Source of the DNA: Bombyx mori | Lineage: Eukaryota > Arthropoda > Insecta > Lepidoptera > Bombycidae | Assembly (NCBI RefSeq): GCF_030269925.1 | Contig: NC_085123.1 | Coordinates: 1,550,001 to 1,614,000 of the forward strand | Direction of reading: 5' to 3' | Length of the DNA stretch: 64,000 bases | Part shown: in pieces, positions 1,467-64,000 of the stretch | Layout of the letters: each line of letters starts with the position of its first letter | Numbering within the stretch: the first letter of the stretch is position 1 | Notes under the pieces: generated by a model | The model's database searches: none | Told to the model about the DNA's origin: nothing | The model's input: the letters and a program-made list of their open reading frames with translations, nothing else | Program-made: the position numbers and the translations under genes

Positions 1467-2554
1467 TAATATAATATTGTAATGCCGACCAATAACATAG
1501 TAAAAATAGTTTGACTTCTGTCTGTATGCATATGTTATAGCTCATGACAGCTTAAGATAATTTATATTTTACAAAAATATTGAGAAATTATTTATAAAAT
1601 TACGTTTTTACAAACTCGATACTGGCAACAATGGCTGCGTAAGAAGTCTATTGCCATACTAATAAAATTATTTCCTTAATAATCTTCTTCTATAAATAAA
1701 GAATATAATTTTTTTGTATTGTGTCTGTGTTAAAACTTGTAATGTATGTATCAATTGCCTAATTGATAAAACTTGACTGGTTAGGAATATTCTAAATTAT
1801 TTTCTTAAGCATATGAAGTTTAAATTCGAGTTGACGTTTTCAAATACCCCGTTTCTTTATTACAACAATTCAAACTGCTTATCGAGGCAATAGAAACAAC
1901 AGTTTGTATGTATGTTAATGTTGAATTAAACTTCGTAATAACCTACGCCAAAAAAAAATTGGGATTTTTTTCCGACAGCCGAAGGGATGCCTTCTGTGTA
2001 TGTATACAGCCGTAATTCCCTTTGCCTTTGTGCCGTAAAAAGGTGAAATACGACCCTGGCTACCGGCCCTTTTACCTTAAATGCGGGATTAACTCGGTTC
2101 GCGCCGTAATGAAATCTTTTTCTTGTTTCACAATTCATTTTGTAGGGAGGTTTATTAAATAGAGTCGACAACGATCTGACGGTAGTAAGCTTTTATTATG
2201 ATTGGCGCATGGATTTGGAAGGTGTCTGTGATGGACTTGGATTAACAGATTTTGATTGGCATAGACAAGCAGATAAAATCACTCTGATAAAAGCGTTGAC
2301 CAGTTACACAGAATTTGAAATTAAAATTAAGCGTATTCATTTTCAAATTTTGCAATCTTATTTCATCAGACACATGAACATATTATAGTATGAAGCCAAA
2401 AAAACTGTGTGACTTTAAAAAAAATATTGTAAATGAGCGTTACAATATTAAAGAGAAGTTGTTGCCTTAAAAAAAATCTTTGACATAGTACTCATTTTGT
2501 TCACTACCTAATTTTGTTCATCTATAAATGTCACCCGCATAATCAATAATTTTG
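1467..2554. other. No gene recognised
   Basis: AT-rich unique-looking sequence. An 81-codon minus-strand frame at 1926-2171 lacks recognisable motifs. Confidence 0.6.
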
Positions 2555-3814
2555 ACTTTTTTTGCGGGAACGCGAGGGGTGAAGTTGTGAAATTTGTTTT
2601 ATTTTGTCTATTTCGTGTTTCTTCATGTTTAAACATCCTATATATCAATGACATGTTGTCTATTGATGGCATGCATTGCTATGCGGATGACAGCACGGGG
2701 GATGCGCGATATATCGGCCATCAGAGTCTCTCTCGGAGCGTGGTGCAGGAGAGACGATCAAAACTTGTGTCTGAAGTGGAGAACTCTCTGGGGCGAGTCT
2801 CCAAATGGGGTGAATTGAACTTGGTTCAATTCAACCCGTTAAAGACACAAGTTTGCGCGTTCACTGCGAAGAAGGACCCCTTTGTCATGGCGCTGCAATT
2901 CCAAGGAGTATCCCTGCAACCTTCCGAGAGTATTGGGATACTTGGGGTCGACATTTCGAGCGATGTCCAGTTTCGGAGTCATTTGGAAGGCAAAGCCAAG
3001 TTGGCGTCCAAAATGCTGGGAGTCCTCAACAGAGCGAAGCGGTACTTCACGCCTGGACAAAGACTTTTGCTTTATAAAGCACAAGTCCCGCCTCGCGTGG
3101 AGTACTGCTCCCATCTCTGGGCCGGGGCTCCCAAATACCAGCTTCTTCCATTTGACTCCATACAGAGGAGGGCCGTTCGGATTGTCGATAACCCCGGTCT
3201 CACGGATCGTTTGGAACCTCTGGGTCTGCGGAGGGACTTCGGTTCCCTCTGTATTTTGTACCGTATGTTCCATGGGGAGTGCTCTGAGGAATTGTTCGAG
3301 ATGATACCGGCATCTCGTTTTTACCATCGCACCTCCCGCCACCGGAGTAGAGTTCATCCATACTACCTGGAGCCACTGCGGTCATCCACAGTGCGTTTCC
3401 AGAGGTCTTTTTTGCCACGTACCACCCGGCTATGGAATGAGCTCCCCTCCACGGTGTTTCCCGAGCGCTATGACATGTCCTTCTTCAAACGAGGCTTGTG
3501 GAGAGTATTAAGCGGTAGGCAGCGGCTTGGCTCTGCCCCTGGCATTGCTGAAGTCCATGGGCAACGGTAACCACTCACCATCAGGTGGGCCGTATGCTCG
3601 TCTGCCTACAAGGGCAATAAAAAAAAATGTAATACATTTATACATACACATTTAAATATGAAGAAACACTAAATGAAAGTGCACAAATGTGCAAAACACA
3701 GATACTAAACAGTTAATGCACCACCGTTATTACACATTTAAACCTGAAGAGACACTAAATAGACAAAATAAAACAAATCACACAACTTCACTCCTCGCGT
3801 TCCCGCCAAAAAGT
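2555..3814. mobile_element. Terminal-inverted-repeat element split by a LINE
   Basis: Positions 2555-2635 and 3734-3814 are reverse complements over about 80 bases with few mismatches; both contain a gcgggaacgcgagg core and a gaagttgtg block. Removing the LINE (2637-3628) leaves an element of about 265 bases with long terminal inverted repeats, as expected of a non-autonomous DNA transposon. I could not define a clean target duplication. Confidence 0.6.
2637..3628 (+). mobile_element. 5'-truncated Jockey-like LINE, reverse-transcriptase C-terminus
   Basis: An open frame from about 2637 to the stop at 3570 starts at the catalytic block (CYADDS, the YxDD motif of reverse transcriptase) and runs through the thumb and C-terminal region (FNPLKTQVCAFT, LGVDIS, VEYCSHLW, TRLWNELP, VFPERYDMSFFKRG). 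It is followed by a short 3' UTR and poly(A). No frameshift is seen in the retained part, so the insertion is fairly young. The last codons (RQRLGSAPGIAEVHGQR) are the sequence seen as short LINE-tail repeats across the window. The element sits inside an inverted-repeat element (2555-3814). I assign it to the Jockey group, BMC1-like, by recognition only. Confidence 0.8.
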
Positions 3815-6798: not shown

Positions 6799-6856
6799 CT
6801 ATCACGAAGCAGTAATGCATCCTGTTTGAAGGTTGGGGCAGCTATAACACAATACA
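6799..6856 (+). repeat. Bm1-type SINE remnant, target of the R1-clade LINE
   Basis: The cacgaagcagtaatgc and gtttgaaggttggggcag blocks of the SINE body are recognisable, then the LINE interrupts. SINE similarity is not clear beyond 7935. Confidence 0.6.
6840..6856. repeat. Target site duplication, left copy
   Basis: Identical to 7918-7934; the two flank the R1-clade LINE and mark its insertion point. Confidence 0.85.
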
Positions 6857-7917
6857 GGCGATCCGCCCGGTCCTCTCGGACTGGGTGAATCGCGACCGAG
6901 GACGTCTCACCTTCCGAGCGACGCAGGTGCTCACGGGACACGGCTGTTTCGATCGCTACCTACACCTCGTCGCCCGGAGGGAGCCGACGCCGAAGTGCCA
7001 CCACTGCAGTGGCTGCAACGAGGACACGGCGGAGCACACGCTCGCGTACTGCACCGCTTTCGCGGAGCAGCGCCGCGTCCTCGTTGCAAAAATAGGACCG
7101 GACTTGTCGCTTCCGACCGTCGTGGCTACGATGCTCGGCAGCGACGAGTCCTGGCAGGCGATGCTCGACTTCTGCGAGTCCACCATCTCGCAGAAGGAGG
7201 CGGCGGAACGGGAGAGGGAGAGCTCTTCTTCCCTCTCGGCGCCGTGCCGCCGCCGTCGAGCCGGAGGTCGGAGGAGGGCGTTTGTCCAGCTCCAGCCCCT
7301 ATGAGGAGGCAGTCTCCTCCCGGTGATGGTCACGGGGCGACCTAAGGGGGTTGAGGCTGCGCCGCACGCTACCGTCACTCTAGCGCGCTGGCACCAGGAG
7401 GACGGGACGGCGCGTCGGCGGCTGCGGACTGCGATGCGGTCCGCATTTTCGTCGTCGCTGTCGTCGCCGAACATACTGTTGAAGAGCAACCCGGTCGGCG
7501 GTGTATCGCGTTCCGACCTGACAGGCTGGTTCTGGCCCAGCGGGGTATCCCGGAACACCAGCGGCACCGCCCGGGCGGCCTGGTAGGGCCGCCGTACCGC
7601 GGAGACCGACGTCGTTGGTTGTCGACTATCGCCTCGACGACCCGTCGGTCGGGCGTCCTCGGGGTGGCGCCGCGTGTCTGGTTGTAGTGTTGACCGCGGG
7701 AACCCCCCTACTCTGTCCAGGTTCTGACCCCGGACGGAGATCGGACGTCGGGTGTAAGAGTGCAGGGGAGTCGTTTAGTGGGTGGGCCCTAAAATCCTTG
7801 GGCCCGCGATCTGCTCTCAACACCTGCAGATCGTTAAGTCTCACATACCCCGCGCGCCCCCTAGGCGCGGGGACCTCGTAGGAGGTTCGGCCCTCTACCC
7901 GAAAAAAAAAAAAAAAA
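6857..7917 (+). mobile_element. R1-clade LINE 3' fragment with target duplication
   Basis: A 5'-truncated GC-rich element. An open frame to 7304 carries LSDWVNRDRGRLTFRATQVL and a Cys/His motif (CHHCSGCNEDTAEHTLAYC, pattern C-x2-C-x9-H-x4-C) characteristic of the R1-clade C-terminus. A 3' UTR of about 600 bases and a poly(A) end at 7917 follow. It is flanked by perfect 17-base copies of agctataacacaataca (6840-6856 and 7918-7934). The target is a decayed SINE. Confidence 0.85.
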
Positions 7918-14655: not shown

Positions 14656-14675
14656 AGTATATATGGGCGCAAACG

Positions 14676-15074
14676 TGGCGGATGAAAGGCGATTGCATGC
14701 AGCAGAGATGCGAATGTTGCGATGGATGTGTGGAGTAACGAGAATGGATAGAATACGGAATGAATATGTTAGAGGAAGTTTGAAAGTGGCACCTGTGACA
14801 GAGAAGCTGAGGAGTGCACGTTTGGGATGGTATGGACATGTGATGAGACGGAATGAAAATGAAGTTGTTAAGAGAGTGTTAACTATGAATGTGGAAGGAT
14901 TTAGAGGAAGAGGTAGACCTAAGAAGAAATGGATGGATTGTGTGAAAGACGATATGGGTAGGAGGGGAGTGGGCGAAGAAATGGTATATGATAGAAGAGT
15001 ATGGAAGGAGAAGGCATGTTGCGCCGACCCCAAGTGACTGGGAGAAGGGCAGGATAATGATGATGATGATGATG
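14676..15074 (+). mobile_element. RTE-type LINE 3' end with target duplication
   Basis: An open frame encodes the conserved C-terminus of RTE-type reverse transcriptases (LRWMCGVTRMDRIRNEYVRG, LGWYGHVMRR, GRGRPKKKWMDCVK, CCADPK) without stops. It is followed by a (gat)n tail instead of poly(A), as usual for this clade. The 13-base sequence atgggcgcaaacg flanks it at 14663-14675 and 15075-15087. Confidence 0.85.
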
Positions 15075-26194: not shown

Positions 26195-26715
26195 AAAAAC
26201 AATCTATCCATTACATTTCTTAGATAATGTGCAGCCATTACAAAAGGTATATCATCATCAGTCTGTATCTCTCCACTGCTGGATGTAGACCTCTCCCATA
26301 GTCCGCCACAATTAACGATCCTCCGCCTTCCACATCCAATCTTTCCCACCATATCACCGCAAGTCATCGGTCCAACGGGCAAGGGGACGCCCAACGCTGC
26401 GCTTATCGGCACGTGGTCTCCAGTCCAAAGCGCGTCTGCTCCAACGTCCATCAGTTCTGAGACACGTATGTCCGGCCCATTGCCATTTCAGCTTGCTAAT
26501 CTTTAGGGCTATGTCGGTTACTTTGGTTCTTTGACGGATTTCATGATTTTTGACTCGATCTATCAAAGAAACTCCGAGCATACATCTTTCCACAGCACGC
26601 TGAGCGACTTTGAACTTGCGGACCAGACCTACGGTCAATGTCCACGTTTCAGCGCCATATGTCATGACCGGACGCACGCAAAGGTATATGTGAAATGTAG
26701 TGAAATGTAAACACA
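26195..26715 (-). mobile_element. LINE C-terminal remnant (WTDDL family)
   Basis: Minus-strand translation gives MTYGAETWTL, RKFKVAQRAVERCMLGVSLI, RTKVTDIA, KLKWQWAGH, RTDGRWSRRALDWRP and SVGRPLARWTDD, a common reverse-transcriptase C-terminus of moth LINEs. A frameshift separates it from the final segment. It ends in a cat-rich tail. Confidence 0.78.
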
Positions 26716-26984
26716 CAGTGAGAGTTATGAATTTTCAAAATTCATAAAACTGTAATTTTAGAGGTGGTTTTTTTATTTTTTAAAACACGATTCTTAATAA
26801 TCTAATTTCTAATGCGAACGTAAACAAAACGAATAAAGCTGATCCGCATTAAGTCTTTGTTTTATTCACAGAACGTATTCCTTTAAAAAAATACTCCGAG
26901 GAAAAATGTAAAGATTAACTTAAACAAGAAACGACAGATAATTATTTGTTGTTGATGAAAACAAAAACTTTTTTGTATTCCAGA

Positions 26985-48358: not shown

Positions 48359-48480
48359 TTATTTCTTTTTAGCATCCTGTTTCTTTTTATTCGCAGATAA
48401 TGTTCTGTTTAAAGCCTCGAGGGCTATAGCATCGTCTCTTTCTTCTAATACCCTTTGCAGTTCCGGTGGCCACCTAGAGT
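48359..48480 (-). CDS. Adgb: Androglobin last coding exon with stop
   Basis: Acceptor tatttatcag, 122 bases ending in TAA. It encodes SRWPPELQRVLEERDDAIAL and ends in a lysine-rich tail (NKKKQDAKKK), like the QKKKKGKKK end of the vertebrate protein. I saw no canonical AATAAA within about 150 bases after the stop, so the polyadenylation site is not called. Confidence 0.87.
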
Positions 48481-51400
48481 CTGATAAATAAAACAAATTC
48501 ATTATTATAGTGTACATGATATCAAAACACATTTTACAATTAGGCGTTTACGATATTCGACCACTATCCTATTTAACGGGAGTTATTCAATCAATTCTTA
48601 CTGGTGGTAGGACCTCTTGTGAGTCCGCACGGGTAGGTACCACCGCCCCTCCTATTTCTGCCGTGAGAAGCAGTAATGCGTTTCGGTTTGAAGGGTGGGG
48701 CAGCCGTTGTGACTATACTAAGACCTTAGAACTATATCTCAAGGTGTGTGGCGCATTTACGTTGTAGATGTCTATGGGCTCCAGTAACCACTTAACACCA
48801 GGTGGGATGTGAGCTCGTCCACACATCTAAGCAAAAAAAAAAAAAAAGCGAGTTTCTATTTTCATTTTAGACTCTTGAAATTTTGTCAGGGTTCGCCATG
48901 AGTATCCCTTCTTGTGTATGAAACAGGTCGATTTTTTGATACTGATCATGCGCTGCCCATCTCACGGTACTATGATAAAAATCAGTTCTGCTTTACCATT
49001 TTAAATCTTAACTAGTTACATCACAGTCGTTTTAAGAACGTATAGATACATAAACATTCAATTTCATATTTTATAATCGTCTCGTATATAATCAGAACTA
49101 CAGTGGGAGGTTCCCTAAATGAATGCACTAGGATGACCTCGAGTAGTCAGAGAAGGCGGGACATCGTGAGATGCGTCAAGTCTACCCCCTCCCAGATGAC
49201 GATCATGACCACTCTGTCAAAATTGAAACGATTGAGAAGAATTATATCTTTTTTCTCCCGTTTCAAGAACTTTCCTCATAAAAAAATATCAGCCACACGA
49301 TACTAAATTATTGTTACATATTTCATTTCCTAACCTTTCAATAGCCCTTCAAGCAAGACACAGCGATTCTTCTGTCTTTCCAACACGTATTCCTCGTTGT
49401 ATGTTTGAAGTTCTTTCATTCTCTCAACTGCCGCTTCGTATCTTGCTTCTCTATTCATTTTAGCCGCTTCTTCTATGTCAGGTGTCATTACCACGCTGAA
49501 TGAAATATACCTCAGTTCAAATATACCTCAGTAGTGTTAACTTCAATTACACGCTTACTTTGATCTAGTTTAAGTTCAGGGTTTTTCGAGTTTACAAACG
49601 ACCTACGTCATGTACCTGGGTTGATGTCGTCATCATGTATGTTCCTGAATCGAAGTGGTATTGCGTCCTGAAAACCCCTTCTCTAAGTCTAGTTGTAGTT
49701 CTCTAGATCATCTTTTCTTTGTGGGATTGGTGTGTACGGGCTTAAACGGTTACCGCCACACATTGCAATCTAAATGCTACCATCTACCCATGACATGACA
49801 TTCTGACACGAGGACGAAGTCCTGAATTACATCCCATTTATCCCATTGCAGAAGCCGATAACTTAGAGAAGCTGATGGTAGTTGGTCAGGTTGACGGGAG
49901 AAGATCATGCGGACGCTCACCATCCCACTGGTCAGATCTGGTAAAGACGCTTACCAGCCTGTCAATAACCGAGGCTATAAAGACCGCCAGGACAGGAAGA
50001 CGTGGAGAAGCATAGTGCATTGAGTGATCAACACTTTAAGCTAGACACGATCTTCAGCAATTAAGAGACCGACTTTGAAGAAGAAAAAGAATCCCATTGC
50101 TGCACCCTATCCCTACAAAACGTCCTACCACTCAATAAATAAACAATCCTTCCAAGTGTAAATAAATATACGTACCAATTTTCACCTCTCTCCTTAGTGC
50201 ACAACGAGATAAAAGACAGCGATATAAATTTGTCCTTCAGTTGATCTGGCATTGAAAGATACAGAGCCTCCTCTTCAATGTCAACTGTCATTTCAAGTAC
50301 TGAAAAGGAAAATAATAATTCCGAGTGTGAAAGCCAAACAATTAGTCCCTTTACGATCTCTTTGAATTCGTAAAGATAAAATTAATTTCTAAAATGATTA
50401 ACTTAGGTCGTGTTATAAGCTGGATACGAGATATTTTTTGTCTAGACGAGATCTTAAAAATAAACCTAATAACTGTTACTGGTGGTAGGACCTCTTGTGA
50501 GTCCGCATGGGTAGGTACCACCACCCCGCCTATTTTTGCCGTGAAGCAGTAATGCGTTTCGGTTTGAAGGGCGGGGCAGCCGTTGTAACTATACTGAGGC
50601 CTTAGAACTTATATCTCAAGGTGGGTGGCGCTATTACTTTGTAGATGTCTATGAGCTCCAATAACCACCTAACACCAAGTGGGTTGTGAGCTCGTCCACC
50701 CATTTAAGCAAAAAAAAAAAAAAAAAGAACTGCATACGTTGCAACTTGCACTATGCACTCTGCAACTTTAACTTTCCGATCTATTTCTGTAAGACGACAG
50801 TGACCACGATATACATTTTAGCTGATGCGGGTCAAGGATACTTTTCTAACTAAATAAATACTACTAAATATTACTAAATACTCCTAAATATTTTTCACGT
50901 GAATTGTTACTGCTTGTGCGTGAACTTACAACCGCTTTCAGTTGCAGGCGTTGGTCCTTGCTGTGCTTGGAATTGATCACCTAAAATATTTTAAAAGATT
51001 TTCAACTTCTAAGCCTATTCAAAAAGTGAATATACAAAGTTCACGCAGATAGCTATTAAGAGATAAATTTGTTTCAAACTACCGTCTTACATTGCTTCAG
51101 TTTAGAGTTGTATCGCGTTACATGCCGTAAATATATATATAATAATATATTTTTTTTATTGCTAGATGGGTAAACGATTTACTACCGCCATTAAAGGATT
51201 TGTATGCTTCTGCATTAGCACACGTTAAAGGCATTTGACCACGCCTTCCCGGGAGAGGCACCCGGTGTACTCATGTCAGGTGATGCACACCGTTGAAACT
51301 CTTCTAAGTAAATACTAACGCAACATAGCTTTCCGCTTTGAAAGTTAAAATATCGCGAAAGGGAGATCTTGCACTATAAATTTCTGTATTCGTTGTTTCA

Positions 51401-54400
51401 GATTAAAATGTAGACCAGGGAATTAACTCATCAGAGCACTCGACATCGATCACACGGTGCAATAATACACAGAAGAACCACTCCGTCGACAAGATTGTGC
51501 ATGCAGTGCGACGTCACGCCGCGCGCTTATTCACAAACACTACACAAGCGCATCGTGTGAATGTGTTGAGCGCGAGCTAATGGTGGGCGGAATGAGGGTG
51601 TTAGGTTTTATTTTCGTTACAGAATTTCTTGATTCGATCGCCGCGCCCAAAGCCCTCAATAAAAGCTATGCAATGCTTGAAAAATGAAATCCAGATAACT
51701 TACTTTTAGTTATCTCTTCAGCAGCTTCATCGTACAGCATTTCCTGAAAATATCAATTTTTGACATCCAAACTTATAAAAACGTTATATTTTTAAAAACG
51801 TTTTCCGAAGACAGTCATAGCGATACGAAATAATGAAAGATGGGCTTAAAAAAGATATGAAACACTAACGGAAATATGGATGGTTTGTCGTAAAAGAAGT
51901 TCGAGAGAAACGGGAAAGAAATCTATTAGAAATGCTTAACCCTTGTGTAATAACATACTTACCTCAAAAATAGTATATTCCGTTTCGGAGGGAGGAATTG
52001 GTGGCGCTTCGAGGAATTCCGCCCGAAATTCTTTCCTGATAATATATAAATTTGGGCTCAATATTCTAAGTCCTATTAAGCTTTCAAGCCTGAGTCGTAT
52101 TTATCGTGTGGGGGGCCGAACCTACTAAGAGGTGCCGGCTCTAGCGTGCAGTAGAGTGCAGTATGGGACTTGATGACCAGTAAAGGCCATGGCTGAAGAT
52201 AGCATAGGCCAGGGTCGAAGAAGAAGAAGAAGTTATTGCACTAGATGATTGAATGTGCTCACCACTTGATGTTAAATGATTATTGGTGCCTACATCACCA
52301 TGTGACTATTGGAGTTTGACTTGAGGCTTTCGATCGAACTTTCGATTTTATTGTACAAAGTCCATCCAATAAATTACACTTTAAAAGTATTGACATAAAA
52401 CCTGAGCTGTGCTCCTCTCAAATTCCTGCCGGGCTCATTAACATCCCATGATCTTCGGGCCGCAGCAAACTCTTGGTCTCTCGTATCATCACGTTTGGCT
52501 AAAGCTCCTCCAGCACTTGCCAACGAGCATTCCAGCTCCACGAATGCGTCACCTGGTTGGGGCTGGCGCAGTGGTATGGGTGACTGGGCTTTATCTTTTT
52601 CTTTTATTAAGACTCCCTGGTGGTTATTTAAGAGAAAGGAATTTAAGTGTTATTATTAATAACAAAATATATAATTTTGCTTACAATAAGGTGTTGTGAA
52701 GATCACGCCTACCTTCCGGAATTAAAGTTATTTTATAATATATATAGCAGTAGGCGAATAGAAGGTACAGTCGAAGGAATATGATTAAAGAAATAGAAAA
52801 AACCTAAATTGCAGTAATGGCATGATCAAGCAAATTTTGCAAATTCACAAGTACCGGACAACAGCACCAGGTCAACCGAGTGGTTACATCCGACTGGTCT
52901 TACCTTCTCTGATGAAAGATCTTCCCTTTGTCGTTTTTCCACATGGAATCGTTAAATAATTTATACTAGGGTATAGTAAGGTCTCACAAGCTTATATAAT
53001 AGTAATTTGATACGTATAAGTAAACAATCACAAAATCATATTTTTCTATAGCAAAAAGAAAACCGATCTGAAAATAAGAAGCTTATTTCTGATCTCTACC
53101 TTTTGGGGCAGGGATATGTGCAGCAGCAGACTTATGACGATGATTGTCATAACTTTCAATGACAAGCATAGATAGTTTTAATTATAGATTGTGAACTCAT
53201 TGTTCATCTACTGAATTTTTCGACGGATCTCAGTGGGTCGCGATTCGGATCCGGTTGTAGATTCTGCGTTAATTATAAATATTTCTCTGAGGTTGAGTCC
53301 GTGAGCTCACCTACCAGTCCGTGAGTAGTTTAAATAGCCTCTACGGCTATCAACGATTAGGCAGGAAAAAAGTCCATCATAGAAAATCTGTCACACTAAT
53401 GATATTAACCTTTTCCTTAACCGTTTTCTTAACTGGACTTTCTGGTTTGGTCTCAACAGAATTTCTGATTTCGTCCACCCTCTTCCACTGGGCTACGGTA
53501 AGAGGCCATCCATTCGTTGCTACAACTCTGCTTTTAAAAATTATGGTGTTATTCATCAACAGTACAATTTCTAATTTTTAGAATTGCGTGTAGTCGATAT
53601 TCACTTTTAATTTTGGGTTTATTGTGAGCTCGTGCCGGTTGGTATTAACATCCTGATGATTTTGACCGCAAAAGAGTCATATTTTCTGAGTAAAGGGTTG
53701 GATAACCGAATATAAATAATATTTCGTCCTCATTTTTGAAGTTGGATAGTGCCACTGATATCTTACTTTATGATAATTTCCAGCTACGGTAACCAACTAT
53801 TTAGTCTATTGTGAGTTTCCTGGCGTACCAGAAATATAGTGTCTGCGTATTCCACCTTGCAGCCATAGCTTCTCGCAAAATCAGTATTCGATCATCCAAA
53901 ATATTACTTAATTAAAGACGAATAAATTTACAATGCGCTCAATAACAAAATTTATTTTTCAATTATACACGTTTAAAAAAAACGAACTTACTGAATTGTA
54001 TACTGCTTTGGCTCTGCCGGCGGAGGCTTATATTCCCTGAGCTGAAATTATGAGTCCATTTTTATGTACATAATTGAACAGCATTCAATTTTGGAAGTAC
54101 ATTTAAATTAGTTAACAAATAACTGAGCTCTTACAAGAAATGGATGATAGACCGACTGAATATATGCGAAATGTTACACACAAACCTTGGTAGAAGATCG
54201 ATTTTTCCCAGTATTCGGTAGCTTTGATCTGACCGATTTGAGTGAACGAGTGCTCGTACCGCCGTCTTTAACTGTCTAGAAGATAAAATCAGTCTAAATT
54301 CACAAAGATTACAAGAACACAAAACAGATGATAATGCTACTAGTAAAACAAGTTTAAAAATAAGATGTCTACTTAATGTGTTATATGCTCTCTTACTCCT

Positions 54401-57400
54401 AAAGTATATATTCCAAATCCGAACGGTATTTTCGTTGAGAAGCAGTCATAGATTGACACTTTAGTCTAACCTCAAGTGCTCCGATAAGTACTTAAGATCA
54501 GCTGAACCTTTGAGCCCAATTAAAAAAAATTGAATCTTCAGAAATATCAACAGAATTAAAACTGCTTTTACGGTTTGATCTCGCGTTTGTTTTAGCATTA
54601 TTTGGCATTTCTGATGTTTAGAATTGGCAGTTTTCGTTACAGATGATTGAAAAGGCCATGACCCAAAAAAAAAATAGCACAAAAAATTATAGACAGTGCA
54701 ACAAAAATATACTAACTGTAGCCACATTAGATTGGGAAGCCGCCCTTTTCTTCCAGTTGATCGAGTCTGCTGGAGGTGCCGGCTCCAACATAATATAGGG
54801 CCAATATAATTCACCTTTCCCCGAGCAGTGTGCCAACTCTTCGACACCGTTCGGTGTTATTGTATAAAGGATCGCTACCATTTCTAACTGCAGGACAAAG
54901 TATTCACTTATCACTTTAAATGTTTATTTATTTATTTATTCAACTTCATGCACAAAGGTACAATGGCGGACTTAATGTCTGAGGCATTCTTTACCAGCCA
55001 GCCAAGGGTGATGTAGAGAGTCCTGTAGTAGGTGGTATTATAACATACATATACAAACATATATACGGTATACATATACATATATATCATCACATACAAC
55101 AACGTACACAATATTATATCATGATATATCTATATATAATCATAATTAAATGCTCGTATATTCATATACACATATTATTATACACACTTAAACGCAACAT
55201 AAAAATATAACACATTTATTAGAGAAATAGAAGAATATAGTATAAGTACAAGAAAATAGTATATTGCACGGAACACACTACATTGCGAGTAAAATTTTAA
55301 AGTTTAAGTAATACCATCATCAGCAGCCCATAAACTTTCACTGCCGGACATAGACCTGATCCAAGGTTCACCACAATGACCGGCTCTGCCCAACCCGCAT
55401 CCAGCAGGTTTTTACGGACTTCAGCAGGCGTCGGTCCAACTCGTGGGAGTGCTACCTCATGATGCGCTATCCGATGCGCAGTCGTCTCTCGAGATTTTTT
55501 CGGCCCCAGTGGCCATCCGTTCTTCTAGCAATAACCTTGCCCATTTCGATCCTTCAAGCTGGTGGTAGGACCTCTTGTGAGTCCGCACGGGTAGGTACCA
55601 CCGCCCCACCTATTTCTGCCGTGAAGCAGTAATGCGTTTCGGTTTGAAGGGTGGGGCAGCCGTTGTGACTATACTGAGACCTTAGAACTATATCTCAAGG
55701 TGTGTGACGCATTTACGTTGTAGATGTCTATGGGCTCCAGTAACCACTTAACACCAGGTGGGCTGTGAGCTCGTCCACACATCTAAGCAATAAAAAAAAA
55801 AAAGCTATGCCAGTTATCTAGATTCTTCTGCGATTGAGCTCCTCATTTCAGATTCGATTTCGCAGGGAAACCCCGACCATAACCATTGGACTTTGAGTGA
55901 ATTTGACAAGGCCTATTGTCATCGACCACATTTTACTGCCTTCTTTCATGACTGGCAACAAATGAGGTCAAAGATTTTTATCTTGAGATAGTGTGGTAAT
56001 TGGATTTACATGTGTATATTTTTATATGTGTAATTACATAATTTATTTTTGGTACTTAATGGGTGATCTCTTTTACGGCCCACTCGTTATTAGTGCAAAC
56101 TATTCCATAGAAATCTCAATGTGAATGCTATAACCTATTCTCGAGACGTGAGGTCAAAATATCCATTACTTTGTATAGGGGTTTTCACACCCCTTTTCCC
56201 TTTAAAACCATGAATTCTTACATCTGACCAAGTAGCAGCTGCTCTAAAGCTGATAGCCTCGTGTTTCGTTACAGAAATCTGAACACCACCCAAGATGTTT
56301 CTTCTATTTGGCACAAACATCTCTTCAACATGAAGCTTAGTAGCCGGCAGAAGTGGAATGTCTTTGCAGTAATCCAAGTCATTGTCGCAGGGATGGAATG
56401 AATCTTCTATTGATGATAACACTGTCAACTGCCAGTGACAATCTTGGTTAAATCCTAGAGCGCGATTTAAAGTTCCGTGGCCCATTACAGTATAGCTGTG
56501 GATGTTATTATATAATTGACTAGAATCATTTTATGAAAAATATATCGCAATGTGATGATTGTAGGTTTATTTTACTATCTCAGAAAAACAATGAAAATGT
56601 ATCATTAAGATAAGATACATTAGTAACAAAATTTATTACTAAGAGCTCATGTTTTACCACTTATATAATAATATATTGGCATCTATTAAGATTGAGAATC
56701 ACTCTGCATGATTTGATTTATTTTATCGCGTTGCGCCTGATATAATATTGTAATAGGTAGGAATGGTTTATTCATCGGTGATCTTGCGTAAGGAGCTAAC
56801 TTATACACTCATAATTAGCACAATAACTATAACTATCTGCCATTTAATTAGGTATTTAAATCCCAGATTAAGTATTAATTATTGCTTAATGAAACTGCAA
56901 CCTTATCAAAATATTTTATATCCCCTTTAGGTTCTACTACTTGCTTACGTAAAATTTTCGATAACGCTGCGAGGAAGAATGGTGATAATCTCGAAAAATT
57001 ACTCATCACTAGTAGTGATGTAGTTCCATGCGCTGGTCCGAACAAATTAAGACAAGATTGGGCTCCAGCATCAATGTCGCTATCCACTGCGTAAGGAACA
57101 GATAAGAATAGCGGAACATAGTCCAAACAAAATATGCTCCAGAAACGTCACGACCTTCAGCGCTCAGGAACACGATACAAGGAGGAGAAGGTTCCACTAG
57201 ATTTGTCTACAAAGTGCATTTACAGTTGTATTAATACGAACCCACGGTTATTCGGCGATAAATCAAACGTCAAATGGGCTCTATAAGGTTGAGGTAATTG
57301 TATTCCATCGTCATTATTATAAACAGCAACAATACAATCTTGCAATGTGCTCAAAACATCGAGATGCACTTTGACTGGGTCGTGACAGTAAAATACTCCT

Positions 57401-60400
57401 TGAAAGAACGGTATCCATTTGCAACTGGAAGTGACATGAGAAATTCCACTGAACTGCTGTAAGCCGTACACTCCGCTAAGAGCTGAAGCCACTGAATAGG
57501 CAGATTTAGCGCCGGGAAACATTAAAAAGAATTCGTTCATTAACGACGAAAGCGCATCTAGATTACCGAAAGCCGATTCCATCACCTGAAAGAAATGTAT
57601 CAAATAGATTACACGAAAATGTGGACCCAATTTCACATTTATTACACGGTATCTTTCATATTTATTTTTGTGTCTTAGAAATTCAGATGATATATGTATT
57701 CTTGTTGAAAGAAAAATGTGTGTGTGTGCAAGTCACATACGGTAGAAGTAAAACTTATAAAATATAAAAATAATCGCAAGGGTCAACCACTCCACAGTGC
57801 AATGGAGCAGCCGCACCCCGGGGGAACCGCCTGCATGATCACGGTATCCCGACGCGAGGTAGGCATGATTTAGCAAGAGAAATACGACAACGTCTATCAA
57901 CTGTGTAACATCTCGTCACCGCGATTCCGGAATTGTTGAATTTACGTGCAGCAACATCTGTTGATAATAAACTTAATAGAAATAAAATAAACATAGTGCG
58001 TAACGGAAGAAATTAAAATGGCGCGTAACCGAAAAACGTTACATACGTTTTTTCCTCCCCCACTTCGATAAAGAAGTTTCACTTCAAAATTATCGAAGTA
58101 TTCTTGTAAAACGGGTAATAATAGAAAATGAACGCTATTAAGTTGTGAACGTATTTAAAAATTGCTGTGACTCAGCCATTAAGTTCATTTTTTTCTCGTC
58201 ATTTAACCCCTTATATAGTTGGCTGCAATATGCACCGAAAATCATATTTAAATAATATAGAGCTAAGACAATAATATATTGGGTGCCACATACCATAAAT
58301 ATTTAATCAACTCTGATCTCGGTATTTGTAATAAGTCCATGAGGGTCCGATAGCATCGGTTCGGATCCACAGTCCGGCTGTGAGAACACACGCACATTTT
58401 TAATCAGACGCTTATCTATAGGGCCTACTAACAACACATCACACAAATAGTACCAATTTCAATACATCCGCATTCAATGACACATGACTGTTCAAACATT
58501 TTCTTGCCCACGCTCCTCTCCAAAGAGCCTGAATACGTGTTGCGGCTTCATGTTTTCTTATTACTAAATCTCGTTCTCTTTTCAGCACTCCGCATTGTAA
58601 TTCGTCTGTAGCCAGCTCACAGACTCGAGAAAAGCCTGGAGTCTCTGCTGCTTTTAGCAGTAAATTCATTGTTTCCGAATCGACCAAAGGTTTTTCCTCT
58701 GGGACCTAAAAGTACGTATTTATGTCAGGTAAGTTAACGACTGTGAATTTTGTTATTCGCCAAACACATAGGTAATGTAAAAAGAGGTATGTATTTATGT
58801 AATCGTTCTAACAAAGTATTTTTTTAAGTTACAGAAGAATGTCTTAACATTTTAGAATTTTATCCTGATTCTCTGAAATCTGATCGAAATGCAAGACCAG
58901 TGACAGAACCACAGGATCAACTTCGTCATAAATACACTCCTTTAATTCTGAAGAAAGAAGTTATTTATAATGACAGTTATAAATATGATTATATAGGTGC
59001 TAATAGATATTGATAATCTTGCAGAAAGAGAAGAAATGAAGACTAATTTAAGTAGGCTCAAATTTCATGGAGCTACTCGTTATTATCCAAAGATGTCATT
59101 AGCTAGGGGAAGCGACAACTTTGCTTTGTACTATGCACTGCACACCCTTGATTTTTTTTTCAACAAGGATAAGTTTCTTAGTTGGAAAAGTGAACGGAAT
59201 TGCTTCGAAACGATACACAGTAATATAAGGGATTCAATCCGATATTTCGAAGGTTTTCGCATCTGTTATAGTACTCAAGTAAGAGCCGAGTCTCTTTGTA
59301 GTAGCCGCCACCAGAGAAGTCATTCGACAACAGATCGAATGGCTGTCAGTCATATATTATTGGGAAATGCATACAGCGACCGAAAAACAAACATGAATCG
59401 TTTTTATTAGTCATATCCGTAAATTTTGATTTTAAACATATAATGATTCCACAATGTATTGGTAAAGAAATCCGAAATTCTGGGACAAAAATAGAAAAGG
59501 TCAAAATCTGAAAGTATTAAGTAGATACCTGTTCGTCAAGTAATTCTTCTTGAATAACATACTCCTCGGCTTCGGGTATTAAGCAGTCGCATGGATCTAA
59601 ATCAGCTATCTCCCTTAAAGATTTCAAAGGCTTTGGCTTCATTGAAAAACCAAAATCAGGATCGCAGAAATATCTCCTCAAAACTGCACTGACCGTCTTG
59701 AATTCAGCCAACAAGAGTTTCTTCTTTAAAACTGACTGTAAAGCCTGTTTGAACATCCAGTGGAGGAGAGGTCGTTTATAGCCCACTTTATCTGGACTCC
59801 ATTGAAGGTCGGGTTGGTAGGATCTGATAAGAACTTTTATTTTTTTAAATCTATGTTTTAATTGAAGAACATGACATCACATGTAAATGAAACCGCATCT
59901 TCTGATGTGTGATCGGATTTTCTATTGGATTTTAAGAAAGAATATTCTAACTTTAAAACTAAACTCGTAACCTTTTTACAAAATTACTCATGTCAATATC
60001 ACTTAAAATAAAGGTTACGGAGATTCATATTTGTATATAGAGAAGACGGGAGGAGTATAACAAGTTGAATAGTCCTCTACTAAAGTACTATTACAGAGTA
60101 GATAATAGAGTACATTTTTAATTGCGATACACATATTACCCATAGCATATGACATACCATATTACTCAGTACGGAAACAAAAATATTCTTACTTATGAAT
60201 ATATTTTTATTTTATTTTCTGAAGTCGTCGTGGCCTAAAGGATAAGACGCCCGGTGCATTCGTGTTGAGCGATGCACCGGTGTTCGAATCTCAGGCGGGT
60301 ACCAATTTTTTTAATGAAATACGTACTCAACAAACGTTCACAATTGACTTCCACGGTGAAGGAATAACATCGTGTAATAAAAATCAAACCCGCAAAATTA

Positions 60401-63400
60401 TAATTTGCGTAATTACTGGTGGCAGGGCCTTTTGTGAGTCCGCGTGGGTAGGTACCACCACCCTGCCTATTTCTGCTGTGAAGCAGTAATGTGTTTCGGT
60501 ATGAAGGGTAGGGCAGCCGTTGTAACTACACTTGAGGCCTTAGAACTTATATTTCAAGGTGGGTGGCGCATTAACGTTATAGATGTCTATGGGTTCCAAT
60601 AACCACATAACACAAGGTGGGCTGTGAGCTCGTCCAGAAATCTAAGCAATAAAAAAAAATTAAAAATTAAACTGCTGTATGCTTGCTTTTTTTTTAGATA
60701 ATAAAAATAGTTGGACAAAGCGGTGATCGAACTCTTTGCTGCTATAAATAATTCGACTGCTTCCAAATGTGTGTGTGTAAATACTGAAGCATAAACGTAC
60801 TTGTAAAATTCTCTGTCACCCTCGACAACATTCGTGTTAGATCGGTTAATCTTTATCCAATTCGCAAAAGCGTTTCCGAGACCTGTCAAGAATTTCGAAG
60901 CCCACGGGCATTCGCGTACCGCAGCCGTCTGTATCAAGTCTCTTGTGCCCAAAAGCAACTTAGATTCGCTCAGTAACATCAAATGCCAATGCATTCGGGA
61001 GTGAATCCAGAGTCTGGAACGTGTAATAGATTTGCTCATGTTAGTAGTTTCACTCCCCTGACGAGTTCGACTAGCTAGTCATACAGAATAAGGATATGCG
61101 ACTCTGACCTCGCCGCGCTACATTTATTATTGGCTCAAATGGGACAACAAGTTAACGAATATACCGATGTCGGAAAGGCTAATTGATTAAAGTGACATTT
61201 TTAATATCTAAACCGGTTATTTTAGTGCTTGTGACGTAATACTATTGAAAATCAAAGGTCATAAGGTCGATCTTTCAATTATTTGGAATACAGCGAATTG
61301 TCGTTTTCTCGATAAAAACAATCTCTTCTAGACAACAATTTTAAGCGTGTATTGTGAAAGTACTCTTAAAAACTCGAACACATGAATGATTCAAAATAGT
61401 TTTTGCAAGAAGGGTGGTGGTGATACCAGCCTATGGGAGCTCACAGTGACAACGTGCACTTGGTACTGTGTACTGGTAGGTTGACGAAGTAGATCTTTTG
61501 AGTCTACTCTTTTTGCCTTACCAGCGATACGGGATACAACATTTAGTTTAAATTTTAGAATCACCTCACATTTTGCGCCTAAAGTTAAGGAACACTTATT
61601 ATTTTCAATATCTTGACAAAAAATGTTATTTAAAACTAATTCCATTAAACTATTTATTTTCTAAAACAAATAAGGCTTTTATTTGTTGAATTTGCAACCT
61701 ATATAGAATGCACCAACATCATAACAGAGAAGAATCAGCAAGAACTTAAGGCCTTCTCAACTGCACCTGCGAATTTATTCATTAAATAGTAATACAAACT
61801 CACCTACAAAAATGCCTACCAGGTTCGAATTCAACTTCAACTGAATCATAGCCCCGCGTCCGGATAAATCCCTCGGCAACTGGCTGCTCCCAATCTTCAA
61901 ACCACTCAAACCTCTCAATAACCAAATAGGCAGGTTCTGTGTTATCAACTATTGGATTACCAGAATTTAGGAGTATGGTTGGGTTCAATATGCTTAGCGA
62001 TAGCCGAAGCTTGTTCTCTTCGGGGCTGTCAATTTGTAGGTACATTGGCCCAGATTTCGGTGCTGGGATGTCCAAGGCCTTGTTGGGAGGAGCCTTCGTA
62101 ATCCTGACAGGCGGGTTGCTGGCAGCTGACGTAAATTGATACATTGACGGGTAAAATACCACACTTGTCCTTTTGATACGTTCTCGCAACTGGAATCAAT
62201 TAGGACATGTAAAAATTGAGCTATGTGTGGATTCGTTTGTCAAGTTCCTATTAAAATAGCTTTGGCTTTTGGTTGAAATATTTAAAAACCGATACCCTAA
62301 TGTCCAAACTAAAAAGAGCCTTGGAGGCCTGATTCGCGCAGTATATTTTGGAGGGTAAACAAGATCATACCGCATCTGAATGTGGGACACGTACATACTC
62401 GTACAATGTTATTACGAAAGGGAATAGGAATGCAGAGAGCGTATGGAATGACCCTTTAGGCGCCACCCGGTTCGCAGATCGAATCAGTAAGGATCTCGTA
62501 AAGTCAAAGGTGCCTGATTGACCTGAGCTGCTAAAACAAATTAGTAGTAAATTCAGTTGATGAAAGACATTCGACATTAGGAAAAACCGGGCGGTTACGA
62601 CGCGGACTATTCTGAACACACGAGTGGGTTTTTATTGCATACGCATTGCGTCAGTGACGTTCTGGTTTCGGGAACAGAAAACTGTTTTTCGTTTGAAAAA
62701 CTGATGTTGATTCCAGGTCTACATCAAGCTGCGGCTTCAGGCGTACTCATATATTTCAGTCGGTCAAAAAATATGGTGCATGTTAAGTACCGCTTTAAAT
62801 TTGATCCATTCTCTTAATTCTTCTTTCTGTTGCTGGCTAACCGCTGATATACCCGTTACTGATTTATTATCCTTCGTTGGTTTCTTTATCTGAAACATTA
62901 ACTCAATTTGAGCGTACGGGTTTTTAGAAAGTCGTCGTGGCCTAAAAGATAAGACGTCCGGTGCATTGTGTTGAAGCGATGCACCGGTGTTCGAATCCCG
63001 CAGGCGGGTACCAATTTTTCTAATGAAATACGTACTCAACAAATGTTCACGATTGACTTCCACGGTGAAGGAATAGCATCGTGTAATAAAAGTGAAACCC
63101 GCAAAATTATAATTTGCGTAATTACTCGTGGTAGGACCTGTTGTGAGTCCGTGCGGGTAGGTACCACCGCCCTGCCTATTTCTGTCGTGAAACAGTAATG
63201 CGTTTCGGTTTGAAGGGTGGGACAGCCGTTGTAACTATACTGAGACCTTACAACTTATATCTCAAGGTGGGAGGCGCATTTACGTTTTAGATGTCTATGG
63301 GCTCCAGTAACCACTTAACATCAGGTGGGCTGTGGACTCGTCCAACCATCTAAGCAATAACGAAAAAAAAAAAAAAATAGTGTAACGAGGAAATTATGTT

Positions 63401-63813
63401 AGTGTAGTGGCGCACTATTAGTTAACATGGGTTTTTATTGTGTCTTTGTGAGCTTAGTGCGAGTTTTTTAACGCTCTCGATAGCGTAAAAGCTAACTCAA
63501 ATTTGTATGCAAATGGAACAGCGCCCCTAGTGGCAAACGTAGGCAAACGTTCCAACTCGATACAAATTTGAGTTAACTTTTACGCTATCGAGTACGTTAA
63601 AAACTCGCACCAAGCACACTGGTCGCGATTTTCCCGGGGGGGTTTTGTGATTGTTGATGTGATTCACGTTATTATGTTTCTCGGCTCCGGTGACCGCATA
63701 ACACCAAGTGGACCCTAAACTCGTCCACTCACCACACGACCCATACCGCTAAAAATAAATAAACTTACAGCCGGAGTCGTTCTTTCGTGCTCATCACGAA
63801 ATCCGAGCGTGAT
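48359..63813 (-). CDS. Adgb: Androglobin gene, 19 joined coding exons, 5' part missing
   Basis: Androglobin is a chimeric protein with a calpain-like N-terminal half, a circularly permuted globin domain interrupted by a calmodulin-binding IQ motif, and a long C-terminal part; in mammals it acts in sperm flagellum and cilium formation. Nineteen minus-strand exons with GT/AG borders join in compatible phase into about 1,058 codons: 63813-63769, 62889-62791, 62189-61804, 61013-60801, 59823-59529, 58705-58466, 57585-57224, 56495-56170, 54883-54717, 54275-54186, 54041-53992, 53527-53410, 52616-52402, 52035-51963, 51743-51704, 50980-50930, 50299-50177, 49495-49335, 48480-48359. Diagnostic pieces, recognised by memory of the vertebrate protein, are the IQ block (ATRIQALWRGAWARK), the NGWPLT segment, the W...EPGR block and the KKK-rich C-terminus. 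Vertebrate androglobin has roughly 1,660 residues, so about 600 N-terminal residues should lie beyond the right edge. Some exon borders are ambiguous (given per exon). Confidence 0.9.
48600..48847 (+). repeat. Bm1-type SINE body in the last androglobin intron
   Basis: Antisense to the gene, between the exons at 48480 and 49335; closely related to the copy at 55558 (both have gtgactatac, actatatctcaaggtgtg and cacacatctaagc). Confidence 0.86.
49335..49495 (-). CDS. Adgb: Androglobin exon, C-terminal coiled coil
   Basis: Acceptor atttcattcag, donor gttagg, 161 bases. It encodes a charged helix (EEAAKMNREARYEAAVERMK, then EEYVLERQKNRCVLLEGLLK) that corresponds to the EEYRNKLLEAEHLK coiled coil near the vertebrate C-terminus. 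Confidence 0.85.
49845..50030 (+). mobile_element. LINE C-terminal remnant in androglobin intron
   Basis: Plus-strand frames read VDGRRSCGRSPSHWSDLVKT and, after a shift, QDRKTWRSIVH and a stop, the usual GRSPxRWSDxxK...QDRxxWR end of a moth LINE. It lies between the androglobin exons at 49495 and 50177, antisense to that gene. Confidence 0.65.
50177..50299 (-). CDS. Adgb: Androglobin exon
   Basis: Acceptor ccttttcag, donor gtacgt; the 3' border may be off by one base. It encodes LEMTVDIEEEALYLSMPDQL and then KDKFISLSFISLCTKERGEN. The phase joins to VVMTPDIEEAAKM in the next exon. Confidence 0.8.
50478..50726 (+). repeat. Bm1-type SINE body in androglobin intron
   Basis: Body-only copy with a 17-base poly(A). 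Confidence 0.86.
50930..50980 (-). CDS. Adgb: Androglobin micro-exon (51 bases)
   Basis: Acceptor atattttag, donor gtaagt, encoding DQFQAQQGPTPATESG. A competing donor three bases upstream keeps frame but has a poorer consensus (gttgta). This small linker exon is supported mainly by its strong sites and matching phase. Confidence 0.65.
51487..51675. repeat. Unnamed repeat, inverted partner of 11036-11215
   Basis: About 180 bases collinear with the reverse complement of 11036-11215. It ends 29 bases from the androglobin exon ending at 51704. Confidence 0.75.
51704..51743 (-). CDS. Adgb: Androglobin micro-exon (40 bases)
   Basis: Acceptor gatattttcag, donor gtaagt, phase 0 to 1. It encodes EMLYDEAAEEITK. 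It is short, but phases and splice-site quality fit both neighbours. Confidence 0.7.
51963..52035 (-). CDS. Adgb: Androglobin exon (73 bases)
   Basis: Acceptor tattatcag, donor gtaagt, phase 1 to 0. It encodes KEFRAEFLEAPPIPPSETEY, in the same place as the LHYLSGFI-type sequence after EPGR in vertebrates. Confidence 0.82.
52402..52616 (-). CDS. Adgb: Androglobin exon with W...EPGR block
   Basis: Acceptor aataaccaccag, donor gttttatg, 215 bases, phase 0 to 2. It encodes AFVELECSLASAGG, a helix with KRDDTRDQEFAAARRSW and then DVNEPGRNLRGAQLR. Vertebrate androglobin has a homologous ERADEIRAMKQAWETTEPGR stretch, recalled from memory. This pairing firmly supports the family. Confidence 0.9.
53205..53370 (-). 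repeat. Decayed second SINE body next to an androglobin exon
   Basis: ctactgaatttttcgacgg, tggttgtagattctgcg and gtccgtgagctcacctacc are recognisable. It lies just 3' of the exon ending at 53410. Confidence 0.6.
53410..53527 (-). CDS. Adgb: Androglobin exon with NGWPLT segment
   Basis: Encodes VVATNGWPLTVAQWKRVDEI and a lysine-rich stretch; donor gttaat, phase 1 to 0. The acceptor aaaagcag at 53528 gives the right phase. An acceptor at 53571 (aaattag) would lengthen the exon by 43 bases but breaks the frame. N-x-WPLT is a well conserved androglobin signature and is one of the strongest identity points. Confidence 0.87.
53992..54041 (-). CDS. Adgb: Androglobin exon (50 bases)
   Basis: Acceptor taatttcag, donor gtaagt (strong), phase 0 to 2. 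It encodes LREYKPPPAEPKQYTI, leading into the NGWPLT segment of the next exon. In vertebrates an IIQCSVLYNSWPLT-like sequence holds the same place. Confidence 0.8.
54186..54275 (-). CDS. Adgb: Androglobin exon (30 codons, basic Ser/Thr-rich)
   Basis: Acceptor atcttctag, donor gtttgt, 90 bases, phase 0 to 0. It encodes a low-complexity basic segment (TVKDGGTSTRSLKSVRSKLP). A different, longer open frame runs through the same bases, but the phase-0 frame is the one that fits both neighbours. Vertebrate androglobin has a similarly unstructured basic stretch here. Confidence 0.72.
54717..54883 (-). CDS. Adgb: Androglobin exon
   Basis: Encodes MVAILYTITPNGVEELAHCS and WPYIMLEPAPPADSINWKKR; donor gttagt, phase 0. 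Two acceptors lie four bases apart (cag at 54888, then ttag at 54884). Only the second gives phase 1 entry compatible with the preceding exon, so I start the exon at 54883. The more typical ctgcag acceptor would force a frameshift. Confidence 0.82.
54918..55025 (-). repeat. LINE-type 3' end with (taaa)n tail in androglobin intron
   Basis: Minus-strand counterpart of 9560-9648. It starts 31 bases 5' (in gene sense) of the exon at 54887/54883. An AT-rich stretch with tacatata repeats follows to about 55260. Confidence 0.6.
55300..55555 (-). mobile_element. LINE C-terminal remnant (WTDDL family), frameshifted
   Basis: Minus-strand frames give MGKVIARRTDGHWGRKNLER, then after shifts WMRVGQSRSLW and LDQVYVRQ, the same family as 26195-26715. 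A SINE abuts it at 55558. It lies in the androglobin intron between the exons at 54883 and 56170. Confidence 0.65.
55558..55803 (+). repeat. Bm1-type SINE body in androglobin intron
   Basis: Near twin of the 48600 copy; inserted at the edge of a LINE remnant. Confidence 0.86.
56170..56495 (-). CDS. Adgb: Androglobin exon, beta-rich C-terminal segment
   Basis: Acceptor acatccacag, donor gtaatg, 326 bases, phase 1 to 1. It encodes about 108 residues including GFNQDCHWQLTVLSS, a KLHVEEMFVPNRRNILGG strand pair and RAAATWSDVRIHGF. The VPN(R/D)(R/K)(N/K)IL pattern matches the IPNDKKILF region of vertebrate androglobin, recalled from memory. Confidence 0.88.
57224..57585 (-). CDS. Adgb: Androglobin exon, post-IQ globin helices and beta segment
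   Basis: Acceptor cctttctttcag, donor gtaaat, 362 bases, phase 0 to 2. It encodes VMESAFGNLDALSSLMNEFF (globin-type helices after the IQ motif), then WIPFFQGVFY and QDCIVAVYNNDDG, which line up with the WFIVFRETF and ICILHIVNNDT segments that I recall from vertebrate androglobin. A stop lies one base past the donor, so the intron is required. It splices to the exon at 56495, giving the continuous RGFVLIQLYTVMGHGTL. Confidence 0.9.
58466..58705 (-). CDS. Adgb: Androglobin exon with IQ motif
   Basis: Acceptor acttttag. It encodes about 80 residues ending just after a perfect IQ motif, IQALWRGAWAR (consensus IQxxxRGxxxR), at about residues 404-414 of the joined product. In androglobin this calmodulin-binding motif interrupts the circularly permuted globin. 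The 3' border is uncertain: donors gtattg at 58466 and gtgtca at 58484 are both phase 0 and differ by six residues. Confidence 0.9.
58826..59412 (+). pseudogene. Frameshifted plus-strand coding-like segment in an androglobin intron
   Basis: A plus-strand frame reads ECLNILEFYPDSLKSDRNAR through to NDSYKYDYIG at about 58996. One base over, an open frame continues with VLIDIDNLAEREEMKTNLSR, FHGATRYYPKMSLARGSDNF and NCFETIHSNIRDSIRYFEGF to a stop at 59408-59410. Near 59290 a third frame (SLFVVAATREVIRQQIEWLS) looks more protein-like than the open one. Protein-like composition that shifts frame at two points suggests a decayed gene copy or transposon protein rather than a live gene. I do not recognise the protein. 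It lies opposite to androglobin, between the exons at 58705 and 59529. Confidence 0.4.
59529..59823 (-). CDS. Adgb: Androglobin exon, globin helices part
   Basis: Acceptor cttatcag, donor gtatct, 295 bases, phase 1 to 0. It encodes SYQPDLQWSPDKVGYKRPLLHWMFKQ-type sequence and a second amphipathic stretch ending in VLRRYFCDPDFGF, then an acidic linker (DLDPCDCLIPEAEEYVIQEE). The KRPLLHWMF segment carries the best candidate for the proximal haem histidine, judged only from position and helix context. Family assignment comes from order and neighbours. Confidence 0.85.
60224..60659 (+). mobile_element. Full-length Bm1-type SINE in androglobin intron
   Basis: Near-consensus head (cggtgttcgaatctcagg) and body with A-tail; antisense to androglobin, ending about 140 bases from the 3' end of the exon at 60801. 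Confidence 0.85.
60801..61013 (-). CDS. Adgb: Androglobin exon, start of permuted globin region
   Basis: Acceptor cgttccag, donor gtacgt, 213 bases, starting with one base that completes an Arg codon and ending in phase 2. It encodes HSRMHWHLMLLSESKLL followed by a predicted helical stretch (WASKFLTGLGNAFANWIKIN). In vertebrate androglobin the corresponding segment leads into globin helices C to H. The reading frame stays open past the donor, but only this donor gives a frame-compatible join to the next exon. Confidence 0.85.
61804..62189 (-). CDS. Adgb: Androglobin exon, beta-rich segment before the globin
   Basis: Acceptor ttgattccag, donor gtgagt, 386 bases, phase 0 to 2. It encodes about 128 residues with proline-rich stretches (NPPVRITKAPPNKALDIPAP) and aromatic and acidic blocks (ERFEWFEDWE, VEVEFEPGRHF). 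The donor after FC-R joins to LWIHSRM in the next exon, giving the continuous GRHFCRLWIHSRMHWHL typical of this part of androglobin. An earlier donor (gtaggc after EPG) exists but breaks phase with the next accepted exon. Confidence 0.85.
62791..62889 (-). CDS. Adgb: Androglobin exon (33 codons)
   Basis: Acceptor aatgtttcag, donor gtactt, phase 0 to 0. It encodes a charged segment containing SVTGISAVSQQQKEELREWI, continuing in frame into the LRERIKRTS start of the next exon. It belongs to the linker between the calpain part and the globin part. A SINE begins only 41 bases upstream of the acceptor. Confidence 0.75.
62931..63377 (+). mobile_element. Full-length Bm1-type SINE in androglobin intron
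   Basis: Complete copy, antisense to androglobin, starting 41 bases upstream (in gene sense) of the acceptor of the exon at 62889. The poly(A) is interrupted once (aacgaaaa). Confidence 0.86.
63440..63626. mobile_element. Foldback element with about 70-bp arms
   Basis: Left arm tagcgtaaaagctaactc / aaatttgtat, right arm atacaaatttgagttaac / ttttacgctatcgag; flanks extend the pairing through gtgcgagttttt. The loop carries gcgcccctagtggcaaacg. It lies in an androglobin intron. Confidence 0.75.
63620..63735 (+). repeat. Decayed SINE 3' half
   Basis: gtttctcggctccggtgacc to ctcgtccactcaccaca is recognisable; abuts the foldback element and lies 34 bases from an androglobin exon. Confidence 0.45.
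63769..63813 (-). CDS. Adgb: Androglobin exon (15 codons, pre-globin part)
   Basis: Short exon between a clean acceptor (atccacag) and a strong donor (gtaagt), phase 0 to 0, encoding ITLGFRDEHERTTPA. The intron between it and the next exon holds a full-length SINE (62931-63377) and a foldback element (63440-63626). The peptide is too short to recognise by itself; phase and position support it. Confidence 0.6.
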
Positions 63814-63931
63814 CTGTGGATTACAAACCGGTATTTTAATTAAGACTTATTGCATAATGAAACACAAAATTGTATATTCACGTCTGTTAGTATTTATCTG
63901 TATATCGTTTGCACGATCTTGTTGTGCTTAC

Positions 63932-64000
63932 GTGAAAATATCTAAATGTACCGCACTCCAAACAGCTCAACGCAAGCAAGAATAGGGAGAACAAGAACAG
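63932..64000 (-). CDS. Possible partial androglobin exon at window edge
   Basis: Read on the minus strand, the last 69 bases are open in one frame and end in a good donor (TTTCAC|gtaagc) in phase 0, which matches the phase-0 start of the next exon at 63813. The peptide ends in LECGTFRYFH. The 5' border lies outside the window and the peptide is not recognisable by itself, so this is a weak prediction based on phase and splice-site quality. Confidence 0.35.

Follow-up and report, generated by a model that had tools for sequence, protein, structure and literature searches.

The 64,000-nucleotide stretch of Bombyx mori contig NC_085123.1 between positions 1,550,001 and 1,614,000 (hereafter, the window) raises two questions: whether a series of short open reading frames (ORFs) on its minus strand belongs to a single gene for androglobin (ADGB), a large protein associated with cilia and the tails of sperm, and what role the protein of such a gene would have in a moth. 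Three-frame reading of the region 48359-63813, combined with splice signals and orthologue alignment, revealed 19 exons on the minus strand. Spliced together, they form a single open frame of 3,123 bases (stop codon counted) that encodes 1,040 residues with no internal stops. All 18 introns of the gene have GT...AG borders, and the phase is compatible at each junction. The resulting model is aligned without gaps to residues 445-1484 of the Bombyx mandarina protein LOC114241421 (P0001, 1,484 residues), with 1,023 of 1,040 residues identical (98.4%) and 17 substitutions. In a tblastn search of the window with this protein, colinear exon matches were obtained, the best with an E-value of 1e-72 and the weakest, for a 40-base exon, with 0.016; as a colinear series of sequence matches they are far above the chance level. 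No match at E<=1 was found in the window for residues 1-444 of the orthologue, except for one match that runs some residues past the upstream border of its exon into intron sequence, and therefore the 5' exons are located outside the window, whose edge is at 64000. As read from these alignments, the window holds the 3' two-thirds of the silkmoth ADGB gene, the 5' side of which is cut by the window edge.

The 19 phase-compatible exons forming one protein with a stop at 48359, proposed in the original prediction, were thus recovered by splice borders, phases and orthologue alignment, while its length of about 1,058 residues was 18 too high. The two long introns it described do not stand out: the longest, 56221-54888, has 1,334 bases, and five more have 800-1,000 bases. 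As to the splitting by gene callers that it considered possible, the closest orthologue is a single, unbroken 1,484-residue model, although 10 of the 47 homologues found (P0027, P0029, P0039 and P0041-P0047) are shorter than 1,200 residues; therefore some lepidopteran gene models look broken or partial.

Several candidate segments were rejected. Pieces 58222-58151 and 58102-58047 do not fit in phase and are absent from all four aligned orthologues; the six additional residues (FVLIQL) given by an alternative donor of exon 57585-57242 are likewise absent from the four. The minus-strand ORFs 57147-56875 and 61660-61391 fall within introns of the final model. The former, a 90-residue open frame in the intron separating exon 7 from exon 8, is absent from the orthologous protein and is possibly a transposon remnant. 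Repeated elements in the introns would be in keeping with a pseudogene or a non-expressed duplicate, but this explanation is hardly credible, as all 19 exons are open, the splice borders are canonical and the alignment with B. mandarina is ungapped, with 17 substitutions per 1,040 residues. Judged by its sequence, the androglobin gene of the window is a real, intact and ordinary member of a known family.

The assignment to androglobins is supported by the Pfam families Androglobin_IV (PF22069; 80.0 bits, E 1.6e-22) and Androglobin_II (PF22068; 42.0 bits, E 1.1e-10), both above the cut-off of 27 in the 1,040-residue model and both detected at E<=1 in each of the 13 orthologues scanned. The IQ family scored 18.3 bits (E 0.0019) in the window model, below the Pfam cut-off of 20.3, although the motif IQALWRGAWAR fits the pattern [IVL]QxxxRGxxxR, kept in 36 of 38 aligned homologues. 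Our Pfam scans gave no match to the NGWPLT part, and Androglobin_V (PF22070) was not found at E<=1 in scans of the window model and 13 orthologues, while a precomputed record lists it for the B. mandarina protein. Accordingly, the predicted ADGB profile hit was obtained for domains IV and II, and not for the IQ part at cut-off or for NGWPLT. The other predicted elements, namely, the IQ motif, NGWPLT, W...EPGR, the helical C-terminus and the lysine-rich tail, are all present in that order; the two long C-terminal helices are predicted in the Heliothis orthologue, which was folded instead of the window protein.

The search with the draft protein (E<=0.001) yielded the 47 homologues, all lepidopteran by name, and later searches added two more from Lepidoptera (P0048 and P0049). 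Among the names of the first ten of the 47, three are androglobin-like (Galleria, Achroia and Melitaea) and one is Androglobin (Loxostege), in agreement with the identity originally proposed. The homologues of Galleria mellonella (P0004) and Melitaea cinxia (P0010) show homology over the full length, with 59% and 58% identity to the draft, and differ by species divergence only; precomputed domains II, IV and V are listed for such lepidopteran androglobin-like proteins. The gene is already known: annotations of it exist for the sister species as well as for numerous moths and butterflies, and hexapod androglobins with degenerate globin domains are described in a 2020 report (PMC7457136).

How much of the globin part is retained bears on the second question. 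In the predicted structures of two orthologues, domain II is followed by several helices, a long IQ helix, more helices and domain IV. We take this order to fit a permuted globin (helices E to H, the IQ helix, and helices A to C), helices being assigned by eye. The globin family was not matched in Pfam by 13 full-length members (E<=1) or six de-permuted domains (E<=10), nor was a PDB globin matched by a profile of nine de-permuted domains at E<=10; the fold-match lists of the orthologue models are filled by beta domains. Across an alignment of 38 lepidopteran sequences, no conserved His or Gln was found at positions 652-675, the apparent E helix, and no conserved His at positions 688-712, the apparent F region as assigned by eye, where Gln695 is common (33/38). 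Residue 658, aligned by eye with E7, is Trp in all 38 sequences; its register is uncertain, because the predicted helix starts very near it. The sole fully conserved His from 640 to 920 is H713, located in HWMF of the apparent G helix.

A sensor of oxygen, nitric oxide or redox state, in which a haem-binding permuted globin part regulates the remainder of the protein, would agree with the apparent helix order and with the description of the mammalian domain as a functional permuted globin (PMC9249397). It is quite unlikely for the moth protein in view of the missing globin matches and the apparent lack of conserved haem ligands, and of the hexapod Adgbs examined in the cited survey, all of which are reported without haem residues E7 and F8 (PMC7457136); no Adgb is reported there from Diptera. 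Since these residues are reported absent from all hexapod Adgbs examined, their apparent loss does not exclude ADGB membership, and the observations on the globin part, together with this survey, place the moth gene within a pattern already known. The globin part of moth androglobin appears worn down, and moth androglobins give the impression of a ciliary scaffold in haem-free form. The likeness to vertebrate ADGB, drawn from Pfam and cited papers, extends to the IQ motif, the helical C-terminus and androglobin domains II and IV; unlike it, the moth protein has no globin profile match, and hexapods are reported to lack the haem residues E7 and F8 (PMC7457136).

The silkmoth ADGB gene probably encodes a calmodulin-binding scaffold of the C1b projection, the globin-like and calpain-like parts of which would be structural only. 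Moth androglobin would form a scaffold of the distal C1b projection in the central apparatus of the sperm flagellum, beside SPEF2; its IQ helix would bind calmodulin, by which the beat may be tuned, and the calpain-like and globin-like parts would act neither as a protease nor as an oxygen binder. This role is suggested because of published findings on the family. Adgb of Tetrahymena co-purifies with Spef2A, Cfap69, Cfap246 and Cfap174 and is assigned to the distal C1b, and the swimming rate of cells without it is reported as 81% of that of the wild type (PMC8175508); in a 2025 preprint, ADGB of mouse sperm is modelled in the distal C1b with SPEF2 and calmodulin (PMC12642653). Androglobin is described from all major flagellated lineages and reported absent from non-flagellated clades, and the same source describes androglobins outside animals and choanoflagellates as being without the globin part (PMC13331133).

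Alternatively, the main activity of the protein could be that of a calpain-like protease, acting, for instance, on a septin while spermatids are shaped. Both domain II and the beta domain that follows domain IV have calpain domain III among their matches; the calpain-like match of the Heliothis model (its residues 682-919) covers the start of the beta domain in exon 8 and parts of exons 9, 12 and 13. The protease part lies outside the window, Peptidase_C2 was found at E<=1 in only 4 of 13 orthologues (best 0.009), B. mandarina not being among them, and the histidine of the GHEM stretch, in our view the best candidate for an equivalent of the calpain histidine, lacks conservation across these 13 orthologues. 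A protease as the main function is therefore unlikely, even with the finding that deletion of the protease or IQ part of ADGB abolished SEPT10 cleavage in transfected mammalian cells (PMC9249397).

For the scaffold role, a comparison is offered by FAP42, a C1b protein of the Chlamydomonas central pair. In VIA re-ranking, which covers only the top 1000 Foldseek candidates, FAP42 was the top structural alignment to a solved structure for the predicted structures of two moth orthologues, and it was likewise the best solved match of the sequence profile. Identity in the aligned parts is 9% (Foldseek) and 18-19% (VIA); FAP42 is longer (2,540 residues) and, to our knowledge, has no globin part. The domain IV part (within 57585-56222, minus strand) is also hit by the FAP42_B2 profile at E<=1 in 10 of the 13 orthologues, the lowest E-value being 8.5e-06. 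At the sequence level, these matches would connect androglobin with the algal C1b protein.

A number of results weigh against the scaffold role. The best stretch of the FAP42 profile match taken alone is weak (E 0.0053), and FAP42_B2 scored 14.5 bits (E 0.041) on the window protein, below the cut-off of 27. The Foldseek superposition on FAP42 is poor overall (template modelling score 0.14, root-mean-square deviation 37.7), with two phage fibre chains next after it at E of about 1e-04, and the deviation in the VIA alignment is 13.9. For the smaller orthologue model, no Foldseek candidate reached E<=0.001, and the 50 matches listed do not include FAP42; the mean predicted local distance difference test scores of the two models, 60.5 and 58.5, are middling. 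The resemblance to FAP42 may in part reflect a general calpain or beta-sandwich fold. Finally, loss of Adgb is described as mild in Tetrahymena and severe in mouse (PMC13331133), and therefore the function may differ between lineages.

The exons of the gene are listed in Table 1.

Table 1. Exons of the silkmoth androglobin gene within the window. Each exon is based on AG/GT borders, matching phase and alignment to the B. mandarina orthologue; Pfam residue numbers refer to the 1,040-residue model.
Feature	Position	Strand	Further basis or remark
Exon 1 in window (ITLGFRDEHERTTPA)	63769..63813	-	Phase 0; corresponds to B. mandarina residues 445-459; earlier exons outside the window
Exon 2	62791..62889	-	
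Exon 3: bulk of androglobin domain II (W...EPGRHFCR)	61804..62189	-	Pfam PF22068, residues 94-202
Exon 4: domain II ends; helical globin-like part begins (apparent E helix)	60801..61013	-	Helices in orthologue models
Exon 5: apparent F-G-H helices of permuted globin part	59529..59823	-	Orthologue models
Exon 6: putative IQ calmodulin-binding motif (IQALWRGAWAR)	58454..58705	-	Pfam IQ below cut-off; motif in 36/38 homologues
Exon 7: apparent A-B-C helices, followed by first part of androglobin domain IV	57242..57585	-	Pfam PF22069, residues 472-576
Exon 8: domain IV completed; beta domain with resemblance to calpain domain III begins	56222..56495	-	Pfam; Heliothis predicted structure
Exon 9	54717..54887	-	
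Exon 10	54186..54275	-	
Exon 11	53992..54041	-	
Exon 12: NGWPLT	53410..53527	-	GWPLT in 31/38 aligned homologues
Exon 13: W...EPGRN	52402..52616	-	EPGRN in 25/38 aligned homologues
Exon 14	51963..52035	-	
Exon 15 (40 bases)	51704..51743	-	
Exon 16	50930..50980	-	
Exon 17	50176..50299	-	
Exon 18: long C-terminal helix	49335..49495	-	Helix 1002-1051 in Heliothis model
Exon 19: final helix, tail rich in lysine and stop codon	48359..48480	-	Helix 1056-1089 in Heliothis model

Repeats are also present in the window. An element detected with a 30-base probe (up to three mismatches) is represented by 21 copies in the 64 kb, versus a mean of 0.00 in shuffled sequence, and looks like an interspersed repeat; four copies are located in androglobin introns (48749-48778, 55705-55734, 60564-60593 and 63272-63301). 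By eye, the ORFs 2512-3570, 6816-7304 and 14657-15037 on the plus strand and 26354-26734 on the minus strand resemble pieces of the reverse transcriptase or RNase H of non-LTR (long terminal repeat) retrotransposons.

As a discovery, the locus offers little more than a demonstration that a multi-exon insect gene can be read from raw sequence. Moth androglobins seem to retain the ciliary scaffold and the calmodulin motif with the haem site lost, and they are useful because this combination would separate the two proposed roles; owing to their haem-free look, what the globin part does can be put to the test. Androglobin is reported to be missing from the Drosophila genomes available in 2012 (PMC3361466), and the moth is therefore a natural insect model. 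A tentative proposal, to which we give a little less than an even chance, is that in moths the permuted globin helices persist without haem and serve the C1b projection as an insert that is purely structural or on which calmodulin docks. If this is true, sperm flagella would benefit from the globin part in some way other than oxygen or redox sensing, which would contradict one current proposal for the gain of this part in animals, as presented in PMC13331133, and the silkmoth would provide a natural haem-free test version of the protein.
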